A stretch of 64,000 nucleotides of DNA, taken from assembly GCF_002205795.1 (NCBI RefSeq), contig NZ_NIUY01000001.1:558001-622000 (forward strand), written 5' to 3'. The notes beneath the pieces were generated by a model that did no database searches, had not been told where the DNA came from, and worked only from the letters and a program-made list of their open reading frames with translations. Positions 16,595 through 18,831 of this stretch are shown here, piece by piece. The position numbers and the translations under genes are program-made. Positions within the stretch are counted from its first letter, which is position 1. The number at the start of each line of letters is the position of its first letter. Source of the DNA: Chryseobacterium sp. VAUSW3. GTDB taxonomy: Bacteria; Bacteroidota; Bacteroidia; Flavobacteriales; Weeksellaceae.

Positions 16595-17008
16595 ATGAAA
16601 AACTTCACAAAGGAACTCACCTATAAAACCTCCCGCAGCAGCGGCGCAGGCGGACAGAACGTGAATAAAGTGGAGACCGCGGTTACGGTGATGTGGAAGC
16701 CCTCAGAAACCGCGCATTTTTCTGCTGAAGAAATTGAACTTATTTCGCAAAAGCTGAAGAACAGAATAAATCTGGAAGGCATCTTACAACTCACGGTATC
16801 CGACAGCAGAACGCAGCTTCAAAACAAAAAAATTGCCACTGAAAAGGTTATAGAGCTTGTAAATAAAGCACTTATAAAACCGAAATCCGTAAACCTACCA
16901 AGCCTTAAAAACGACAGGTCGAAAAGAGAATTCAGACAAAGAAACAACTTTCAGAAAAAAAGGAAAACTGCAAATTCCGGTTTTAGGCAAAACGTTAATT
17001 TATGCTAA
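16595..17008 (+). CDS. arfB: Alternative ribosome-rescue factor ArfB / peptidyl-tRNA hydrolase
   Basis: A 137-residue release-factor-like hydrolase that frees stalled ribosomes. The catalytic GGQ lies in SSGAGGQNVNKVETAV at about residues 16-31, and the C-terminal tail is Lys/Arg/Asn-rich (KRKTANSGFRQNVNL), as required to occupy the empty mRNA channel. No release-factor domains 1 or 4 are present. It is the last gene of the argS-menE-arfB run. A short AT hairpin at the stop codon has no T run, so no terminator is claimed. Confidence 0.88.
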   Translation: MKNFTKELTYKTSRSSGAGGQNVNKVETAVTVMWKPSETAHFSAEEIELISQKLKNRINLEGILQLTVSDSRTQLQNKKIATEKVIELVNKALIKPKSVNLPSLKNDRSKREFRQRNNFQKKRKTANSGFRQNVNLC

Positions 17009-17011
17009 ACA

Positions 17012-17043
17012 GTTGTTTAGTAAATACTTATTTCTTAAATTTG
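17012..17043 (+). promoter_or_regulatory. Promoter of the leader upstream of the Rnk/Gre-like gene
   Basis: GTTG at 17012-17015 and TAAATTTG at 17036-17043 are 20 nt apart. Transcription from here would start near 17050, leaving about 270 nt of leader before the next long gene at 17318, in contrast to the roughly 10-nt leaders elsewhere in the window. Confidence 0.55.
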
Positions 17044-17064
17044 TAAAAATCAATTTATAAATAC

Positions 17065-17175
17065 ATGGTCACATCATTCTTTTTATCCGAAACCGGAATA
17101 TCCAGACTTTTGCTGTCCTTGCTTTATTTGCATACTGATTCGTTCTTGAAAAGTTCCAAAGATTTCATCAATTAA
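17065..17175 (+). CDS. Possible 36-codon leader ORF
   Basis: An ATG 21 nt after the -7 box opens a 36-residue frame (starts MVTSFFLSETG, contains RLLLSLLYL, ends SSKDFIN) that stops at 17173-17175. The spacing to the promoter resembles that of real genes nearby, and the stop codon directly abuts a 7-bp hairpin. I recognise no family. It could be a regulatory leader peptide (Leu-rich: 7 Leu of 36) or chance. Confidence 0.3.
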   Translation: MVTSFFLSETGISRLLLSLLYLHTDSFLKSSKDFIN

Positions 17176-17176
17176 T

Positions 17177-17300
17177 CCCTGTCAGATCCAAGACAGGGCA
17201 TCTCAGCATTTTTACTATTAATTTTTGATGTGTTTTCACAGGCAGAATATCTCCTGATATTTTCGGCCTGCATTGGATTGTATTAAACACATCATCCAAT
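17177..17300 (+). promoter_or_regulatory. Structured mRNA leader, candidate cis-regulatory RNA
   Basis: Hairpin H1: CCCTGTC (17177-17183) / GACAGGG (17192-17198). Then a nested fold: outer helix TGATGTGTTT (17226-17235) / AAACACATCA (17285-17294), enclosing CAGGC (17239-17243) / GCCTG (17266-17270) and AATATC (17246-17251) / GATATT (17256-17261) with a TCCT loop. A further helix, ATTGGAT (17272-17278) / ATCCAAT (17294-17300), would trap one strand of the outer helix in its loop, giving either a pseudoknot or a switch. TGTG-TTTT-CACA (17229-17240) is another competing hairpin. The region ends 17 nt before the start codon of the next gene. Confidence 0.5.
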
Positions 17301-17317
17301 TCAAAAAAAATAAAAAA

Positions 17318-17698
17318 ATGACACAGAACATTATCTTAACAACAGGAATTTACGATGCGATTAAAGATCACCTCAGAAGAAAAAAAGTAACCCCAAATGA
17401 AGAAGTAAGACTTACCTCGGAACTTAGAAATGCCGTGCAGGTAAGAAGAAGAGAACTTCCGGAAGATGTAGTAACGGTAGACCGAAAAGTAACGGTAAAA
17501 GACCATACTTTAAACAAAGAAGAAGAATATATCTTTGTAGGAGTTGCACAGGCAAGACCGAAAAAAAACAAACACTCTATCCTTTCCGACATGGCTCTGG
17601 CGACAATGGGATATAAAGTGGGTGATATTGTAGAGTATCCTTTTAAAGACGGCGAAAGAAGAATTGAAATTCTGAAAGTTGAAAACTGGGAAGGCTAA
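17318..17698 (+). CDS. GreA/GreB C-terminal-domain protein (Rnk-like)
   Basis: A 126-residue protein with the FKBP-like C-terminal domain of Gre factors (LSDMALATMGYKVGDIVEYPFKDGERRIEILKVE as read from 17580 to 17690) and a short basic N-terminal part instead of the long antiparallel coiled coil that enters the RNA polymerase channel. By analogy with Rnk it may bind RNA polymerase or act as a regulator without cleavage-stimulating activity; this is inference. The ATG at 17318 follows an A-rich stretch and gives MTQNIILTTG; an in-frame TTG at 17273 lies inside the structured leader and is unlikely. A strong terminator follows. Confidence 0.7.
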   Translation: MTQNIILTTGIYDAIKDHLRRKKVTPNEEVRLTSELRNAVQVRRRELPEDVVTVDRKVTVKDHTLNKEEEYIFVGVAQARPKKNKHSILSDMALATMGYKVGDIVEYPFKDGERRIEILKVENWEG

Positions 17699-17731: not shown

Positions 17732-17766
17732 AAAAGTACAGCCTTTGCCCGCTGTACTTTTTTCTT
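17732..17766 (+). terminator. Terminator after the Rnk-like gene
   Basis: Perfect 11-bp stem AAAAGTACAGC (17732-17742) / GCTGTACTTTT (17751-17761) with an 8-nt loop and a following T run. Confidence 0.92.
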
Positions 17767-17856: not shown

Positions 17857-18831
17857 ATGAATAAACCGATTACAGAATTTTTAGAAAAATATTATCTGCA
17901 TTTTAATGCAGCCGCTCTGGTTGATGCTTCCAAAGGCTATGTAGCCCATTTAAAAGACGGCGGAAAAATGATGATTACTTTGGCTGGTGCAATGTCAACC
18001 GCAGAGCTGGGGAAAATTTTGGCCGAGATGATCCGTCAGGATAAAGTTGATATTATTTCGTGTACCGGTGCTAACCTGGAAGAGGATGTAATGAATCTTG
18101 TTGCGCACTCTCACTACAAAAGAGTTCCTAACTACAGAGATTTAACGCCAGAACAGGAAAGAGAACTGCTTGATCAGCATTTTAACCGGGTAACCGATAC
18201 CTGTATTCCTGAAGAAGAAGCGTTCCGCCGTTTGCAGAAGCATTTGGAAGACGTTTGGCATGCCGCTGAAGAAAAAGGCGAACGTTATTTCCCTCACGAA
18301 TTCCTTTATCAGGTAGTAAATTCCGGAGTTCTGGAGCAATATTATGAAATTGATCCTAAAGATTCATGGATTGTAGCTGCAGCAGAAAAAAACCTGCCGA
18401 TTGTTTGTCCGGGCTGGGAAGACTCCACCACCGGAAATATCTTTACTTCAAACGTAATTAAAGGAAAACTGAATGTTCATACCGTAAAATCGGGTATTGA
18501 ATACATGATTTATCTGACCGAATGGTACCGTGCAAATTCAGGTGGAAAAGGCGTTGGCTTTTTCCAGATCGGTGGAGGAATCGCAGGAGATTTCCCAATC
18601 TGTGTTGTTCCAATGATGTACCAGGATCTGGAGTGGGAAGATGTGCCTTTCTGGGCATACTTCTGCCAGATTTCCGATTCTACAACGTCTTACGGTTCTT
18701 ATTCAGGAGCAGTGCCGAACGAAAAAATTACCTGGGGTAAACTCGATATCGATACACCGAAATATATCGTTGAAAGTGATGCTACCATTTGTGCACCACT
18801 CATGTTCACTTATATTTTAGAGAATTCTTAA
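17857..18831 (+). CDS. Deoxyhypusine synthase family protein
   Basis: A 324-residue NAD-dependent DHS-fold protein. The archaeal/eukaryotic enzymes transfer the aminobutyl group of spermidine to eIF5A; bacteria lack eIF5A, and bacterial relatives have been linked to polyamine (homospermidine) synthesis. Motifs seen: ITLAGAMSTAELGKI, DIISCTGANLEED, CPGWEDSTTGN, GGKGVGFFQIGGG and ITWGKLD, the last placing a lysine at the site of the DHS catalytic Lys (WGK). Because the lysine is kept, an active enzyme is likely. It stands alone between its own -7 box and a strong terminator; no eIF5A-like or other polyamine gene is adjacent. Confidence 0.85.
   Translation: MNKPITEFLEKYYLHFNAAALVDASKGYVAHLKDGGKMMITLAGAMSTAELGKILAEMIRQDKVDIISCTGANLEEDVMNLVAHSHYKRVPNYRDLTPEQERELLDQHFNRVTDTCIPEEEAFRRLQKHLEDVWHAAEEKGERYFPHEFLYQVVNSGVLEQYYEIDPKDSWIVAAAEKNLPIVCPGWEDSTTGNIFTSNVIKGKLNVHTVKSGIEYMIYLTEWYRANSGGKGVGFFQIGGGIAGDFPICVVPMMYQDLEWEDVPFWAYFCQISDSTTSYGSYSGAVPNEKITWGKLDIDTPKYIVESDATICAPLMFTYILENS

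Follow-up and report, generated by a model that had tools for sequence, protein, structure and literature searches.

The question raised by this locus is how a gene of the GreA/Rnk kind, preceded by about 270 nt that had been read as a structured leader, is controlled. The window analysed here is the whole 64,000-nucleotide stretch of Chryseobacterium sp. VAUSW3 DNA, from a genome of 2.63 Mb whose close matches carry the names Kaistella and Chryseobacterium, and the promoter element, upstream ORF (uORF), helices, gene and terminator-like stem-loop described below all lie on its forward (+) strand. The gene (17318-17698) encodes 126 amino acids with a GreA/GreB C-terminal domain (Pfam GreA_GreB, E 6.3e-17), and the top match of its product among solved structures is Rnk (3bmb, E 1.1e-9). 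Under NCBIfam cut-offs the protein reaches neither the greA model TIGR01462 (57.1 of 139 bits) nor the Rnk model NF004396 (48.6 of 109 bits), and from family membership this GreA/Rnk-like protein would be expected to act on RNA polymerase. A terminator-like stem-loop lies 3' of the gene at 17732-17761 (consensus scan: one found, 0.7 expected in shuffles).

The original prediction had placed a promoter at the head of the ~270 nt and treated everything between it and the gene as an untranslated leader. The promoter part stands, as a predicted -7-type element, TAAATTTG, is found by sequence match at 17036-17043, the flavobacterial -7 consensus being TAnnTTTG. The untranslated leader does not, since an ORF of 36 amino acids plus stop (17065-17175, MVTSFFLSETGISRLLLSLLYLHTDSFLKSSKDFIN) lies inside it, beginning 21 nt past the -7-like element, so that the "270-nt leader" breaks down into a small first cistron and a spacer which, across 114 distinct leaders, measures 120-298 nt (median 148) before the gene. 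A transcript from this promoter would be expected to start near 17048-17050. In 76 of the 114 a TAnnTT[TC]G lies no further than 70 nt ahead of the uORF start, with near variants recognised by eye in many others, and because the uORF sits shortly behind the predicted promoter, the short 5' end belongs to it and not to the GreA-like gene. The uORF peptide ends ...YLHTDSFLKSSKDFIN in the window and, across leaders, in the conserved Y-L-H-x-D-x-F-L-K-x-S-K-[ED]-F-I, with a variable N-terminal half.

A search for the leader in 100 related genomes returned, besides the window, 14 loci (L002-L015) sharing more than the promoter or A-rich ends. The segment common to these loci is centred on ~17119-17189 and, read in frame, is the end of ORF 17065-17175. 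Within the genus, 30 of 36 genomes proved to hold an orthologue of the GreA/Rnk-like gene (E <= 2.5e-37), and further orthologue loci were taken from genome contigs (the best 80 of 105 named loci) and from samples of the family, order and phylum. The uORF lies upstream of the GreA/Rnk-like gene at 142 of 143 loci, a set containing some genomes twice via two collections; because it counts L141, which is the L050 gene again, along with several G loci matching named contigs, the 114 distinct leaders are the better count. One of the loci carrying the unit, L115, comes from a strain named F. johnsoniae CI04. Loci L142-L150, L152 and L158 were excluded from the analysis as sites already in the set, and the uORF pattern was broadened after the first passes, which had missed L060 and L176 (both spotted by eye), the wide form being the one used for the 114. 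The single locus of the 143 without the uORF, L040 (G034), is also missing P1, the hairpin described below; the upstream half of its leader has been replaced, and the P2 and S2-3' sequences are still recognisable. Only one orthologue was found outside the order (L185, not counted among the 143), with no uORF in the 330 nt inspected.

Within 296 genomes of the order, strong matches to a uORF profile (E <= 3.5e-12) were obtained in 30, and the same 30 genomes carry the GreA/Rnk-like gene (E <= 1e-25); there was no strong match in any of the other 266, and two weaker profile matches among the 296 fall within other genes. In the genomes sampled, the uORF is found only together with the GreA/Rnk-like gene. 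Likewise, the uORF was absent from the viral contigs searched and from the plasmids searched (the latter with one 36-aa peptide as query), and uORF peptides had no match in Pfam (two peptides) or NCBIfam (13 peptides).

The reading frame itself bears the marks of selection. In 105 of the 114 leaders an ATG is positioned 34-35 codons ahead of the conserved Phe, the script picking the ATG nearest 35. For 100 distinct 19-codon cores from the C-terminal end (53 distinct peptides), pN/pS was 0.21 in frame, compared with 0.98 and 1.26 for the two remaining forward frames and with 0.74, 0.35 and 1.17 for the three reverse ones, while differences per comparison fell at 49% of third, 22% of first and 16% of second codon positions. 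One Asp, one Phe, one Leu and one Lys are invariant in the core despite codon variation. Judged by this pattern of substitution, selection acts on the C-terminal part of the uORF at the protein level. Core codon 16 (Glu/Asp; 17161-17163 in the window) has G or C as its third base in 110 of the 114 leaders (GAG 56, GAC 54, GAT 3, GAA 1, the window being among the three with GAT), unlike the downstream genes at the same loci, which use GAA and GAG 994:221 and GAT and GAC 700:196. A scan for a base-pairing partner of the third base of this codon (G/C) found none.

Just beyond the uORF lies hairpin P1 (17177-17198), in which CCCTGTC (17177-17183) pairs with GACAGGG (17192-17198) around a loop at 17184-17191. 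This helix, which had been foreseen as H1, covaries among relatives, with a permutation z of 7.1 for its arms (0 of 20000 permutations as high, 38 leaders) and double changes in three of seven pairs in a MAFFT alignment of 21 leaders. Taking the Asp-Phe-Ile codons (17161-17169) as the reference point, the distance from the Phe-Ile codons to the start of P1 is 7 nt in 110 of the 114 leaders and 6 nt in four, in a count that ignores an additional closing pair of this hairpin and for which P1 was placed by hand in L052 and L181. This distance is kept whatever the position of the stop codon, which follows the Ile codon by 0, 3, 12, 15 or 21 nt in 16, 77, 1, 1 and 19 leaders, respectively; the 19 with the latest stop all fall in the group including Flavobacterium, and their stop codon is at the P1 loop.

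The loop of P1 is itself one strand of a second helix, S2, supported by permutation test and alignment, in which GATCCAA (17185-17191) pairs with TTGGATT (17273-17279), the latter strand lying ~39-60 nt ahead of the GreA/Rnk-like gene across leaders. A pseudoknot had been entertained in the original prediction and a conserved one does exist, with different pairing from that first drawn: the partner of TTGGATT is the P1 loop. Loop and partner change together from leader to leader, for example GATCCAA/TTGGATC, GGTTCAA/TTGAACC, GATTCAG/CTGAATC, GACTTAG/CTAAGTC, CAACTCT/AGAGTTG, ACCCAA/TTGGGT, AATCGG/CCGATT and TCGTTCGC/GCGGGCGA, and S2 can form five or more contiguous pairs in 112 of the 114 leaders and six or more in 108. 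The only two with fewer than five are L110 and L044, where the partner is displaced by an insertion; in the latter ~150 nt separate the pseudoknot module from the gene, and a module pairing, GGTCCGC/GCGGGTC, is kept.

Using 38 leaders less than 72% identical, we scored each loop against its own downstream window and those of the others, and obtained a mean of 15.2 for own and 9.3 for others' windows (z 9.2, a value reached in 0 of 20000 permutations). The z values of the control windows were 0.04, 0.9 and 2.2, the last of which was reached by 273 of 20000 permutations and is the site of a second possible partner in many Chryseobacterium leaders. When loops were swapped among all 114 leaders, the mean pairing score fell from 16.5 to 12.2. 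Of 49 leaders listed for alignment, 21 were used in alignment A3 and eight in A4. For P1 and S2 in the 21-leader MAFFT alignment, 96.5% of cells are standard pairs and eight of 14 pairs show double changes, with a covariation score of 0.347, compared with 0.202 for shuffles and no more than 0.11 when slid, and a number of further pair types equalled by 15 of 500 shuffles. In the eight-leader set 98.8% of the cells of P1, S2 and P2 taken together are paired; four of the five covariation measures were matched by 4 of 500 shuffles and the fifth was not above them (183 of 500), the shuffles in both sets being of a kind that does not remove relatedness. The first loop is mostly 1-2 nt, with 0 or 1 nt between the helices. 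This geometry is that of an H-type pseudoknot, and by these comparisons the fold formed by P1 and S2 is conserved and supported by compensatory changes.

Two other pairings of the P1 loop were considered. Many Chryseobacterium leaders (for example L076, L095 and L107) contain the second possible partner, AGGATCCA/TGGATTCT, ~10 nt upstream of S2-3', which is possibly a lineage-specific alternative register. Pairing of the loop with the end of the uORF was rejected (permutation z 1.0).

The 3' part of the leader is enclosed by P2, the outer 10-bp helix, whose strands TGATGTGTTT (17226-17235) and AAACACATCA (17285-17294) were correctly paired from the outset and covary, the permutation test giving z 9.0 (0 of 20000 as high; control -0.06; 38 leaders) with windows that were set by position and chosen after the result of a looser search. 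That whole-region search of the 114 leaders separated P2 weakly (own 17.1, swapped 16.0, sd 2.8). Because MAFFT failed to align P2 across genera, the helix was judged by permutation and on the one eight-leader group. Inside P2 lies P3, a variable hairpin (17239-17270) with CAGGC (17239-17243) and GCCTG (17266-17270) and with AATATC/GATATT, both pairs already noted; the P3 region reached a permutation z of 4.6 in 35 leaders, L044 being omitted from this test and from the ribosome-mask folding described below. Since S2-3' sits inside P2, all four elements (P1, S2, P2 and P3) can coexist. A competing helix, ATTGGAT/ATCCAAT, is present at 17272-17278 and 17294-17300 as had been reported and is not conserved (z -1.1). 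Helix conservation with compensatory changes in relatives, which the original prediction had proposed to look for, is found for P1, P2 and the S2 pseudoknot. Positions 17044-17320 have a modest folding advantage over shuffles (z -2.28, equalled by 3 of 200), too small for folding alone to settle anything.

Put together, these features give a well-supported prediction of a compact transcription unit consisting of a promoter, the 36-aa uORF, a pseudoknotted RNA (17177-17294; P1/S2/P2/P3) and the GreA/Rnk-like gene. The cis-regulatory RNA proposed before this gene is borne out as a structured cis element with conserved helices; the conserved uORF had been missed. The genes flanking the promoter-uORF-pseudoknot-gene unit vary from genus to genus, with the unit itself staying intact, and because the neighbours vary, the unit is self-contained. 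In the window the unit is adjoined upstream by the gene for an RF-1-domain protein (16595-17008), which we take to be ArfB-like, and a deoxyhypusine-synthase-family gene (17857-18831) lies downstream; neither is its neighbour in all genera examined.

The best explanation of this arrangement, and in our judgement a probable one, is a ribosome-sensing leader peptide which, together with the pseudoknot, would control the GreA/Rnk-type gene. The ribosome is the likely sensor because the conserved small ORF fills the first half of the leader, and a sensor of the nascent peptide fits because the C-terminus is selected, the P1 distance is fixed, the pseudoknot is conserved and the linkage to one gene is strict. 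The nascent uORF peptide would slow or arrest the ribosome near Phe-Ile, where the pseudoknot would abut the mRNA entry channel or the ribosome would take in the 5' strand of P1; if the P site holds Phe and the A site Ile, a 7-nt gap sets P1 at the mRNA entrance. The open or closed state of P1/S2 could then set the fold down to ~24 nt before the gene, that fold could set translation of the GreA/Rnk-like gene or stability of the transcript, and output of the gene would track the state of translation. Arrest exactly at the stop codon cannot apply to all leaders, because the stop lies 12-21 nt past Ile in 21 of the 114 leaders, and the uORF has no single-amino-acid run to suggest classical attenuation. 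In the window P2 stops 23 nt short of the ATG and does not reach the core of an initiation site, and when 37 leaders were folded (nested structures without pseudoknots) a ribosome mask left accessibility of the gene start unchanged, with a mean P(unpaired) of 0.48 free and 0.49 masked. The ~150-nt insertion in L044 and the presence of the gene without a uORF at L040 also count against the explanation.

More tentatively, the element could be a two-part ribosome brake, in which a nascent arrest peptide, YLHxDxFLKxSKEFI, and a pseudoknot 7 nt ahead would act jointly at Phe-Ile and report the translation state to a factor of the RNA-polymerase secondary-channel type. If this were true, it would connect translation stress directly to transcription elongation in bacteria without Shine-Dalgarno sequences.

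Of the competing explanations, the one that survives best, itself unlikely, is that the pseudoknot is its own sensor, of a metabolite, an ion or, by autoregulation, the GreA-like protein, with uORF translation having a modulating role. A compact pseudoknot with conserved helices is what many riboswitches possess, and the E. coli greA gene is, according to the part of PMC6829880 drawn on here, autoregulated through its leader. However, our alignments show no unpaired core of strong conservation beyond the helices, the P1 loop and S2 sequences change freely, the leader has no Rfam match, and this reading does not account for the constant spacing between P1 and the uORF codons. The next, which we also doubt, regards the uORF product as a functional small protein expressed together with the GreA-like protein, the pseudoknot being a separate cis element. 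Selection at the protein level and strict co-occurrence with the gene would both be expected of a small partner protein, but conservation is confined to the C-terminus with the N-terminal half left variable, a free protein needs no fixed distance between P1 and its Phe-Ile codons, and some Flavobacterium leaders read on into P1, adding residues.

It is far less probable that the leader serves as the source of a GraL-like small RNA acting in trans. GraL does come from the E. coli greA leader (PMC6829880, in part), so leader-borne control of a GreA-type gene is common to both; in contrast, GraL is described there as a leader RNA working with a terminator structure, and the window leader has an ORF in its place, half of the leader being coding. 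A small RNA processed from this leader, as had been suggested, finds no support in a consensus scan, which detected no terminator-like site there to release one. Least probable of all is that the pseudoknot stimulates frameshifting or readthrough to yield a longer uORF product, for although 7 nt is a usual gap for such stimulators and the in-frame reading of 21 of the 114 leaders already extends 12-21 nt further, the shifted frames (-1 and +1) stop at scattered points with no conserved alternative frame (38 leaders), no slippery heptamer was seen, and the frame relation between uORF and gene is random (41, 39 and 34 of the 114).

The preferred reading, a ribosome-sensing leader peptide coupled to a pseudoknot, has relatives among known systems. 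Leader peptides that act by ribosome stalling include tnaC, ermC and speFL, and we know of no arrest peptide that the uORF peptide resembles; regulatory uORFs are, to our knowledge, known mostly from proteobacteria and firmicutes. Stalling uORFs of the toiL-topAI type, as presented in the sections of PMC12121999 covered here, share with the window a short ORF just past the promoter, a conserved C-terminus, RNA structure and a presumed target gene. Unlike in those systems, P1 is here fixed at 7 nt from Phe-Ile and not from the stop, the pseudoknot is conserved, nested folding predicts no hiding of the gene's start site, and the phylum is without Shine-Dalgarno sequences (PMC6847099). Structured RNAs known in flavobacteria include Rfam families such as 6S and Flavo-1; the window contains two tRNAs as its only Rfam hits, with nothing at gathering cut-offs near the gene there or in 20 relatives. 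A check against Rfam including the 6S families had been proposed and returned no match in either, and 6S or another Rfam RNA was rejected, as leader matches were far below the gathering cut-off.

In Flavobacterium psychrophilum, structured 5' regions have been described and leader-peptide attenuation proposed (PMC9723704, in part). The elements named in those sections (pheA, hisG, ftsY, acsA, alaS, rimP and amino-acid operons), from a survey total of 64, differ from that in the window in that none is at a GreA-like gene. Three uORF peptide strings did not occur in the open-access literature searched, and no open-access paper concerning the locus was among the matches listed. Together, the uORF and pseudoknot look like a ribosome-worked switch so far undescribed in the open-access literature searched. 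The element occurs in two families of Flavobacteriales-type bacteria and is bound to a single gene family; in it a peptide and a pseudoknot, both conserved, are held at fixed spacing. With a GreA/Rnk-type target, it may connect translation with RNA polymerase. Shine-Dalgarno sequences are missing from mRNAs of the phylum according to PMC6847099, a paper in which the terms leader peptide, uORF, upstream ORF, small ORF and stall do not occur.

A further arrangement was observed in Flavobacterium frigoritolerans (L116:1-1034), where a second copy of the leader, from the uORF end onwards, is clipped by the edge of the locus. In this copy, the leader and ~23 codons of the GreA-like gene are fused in frame to another gene, whose product has a signal-peptide-like stretch, a natural fusion of the control region to a different partner.
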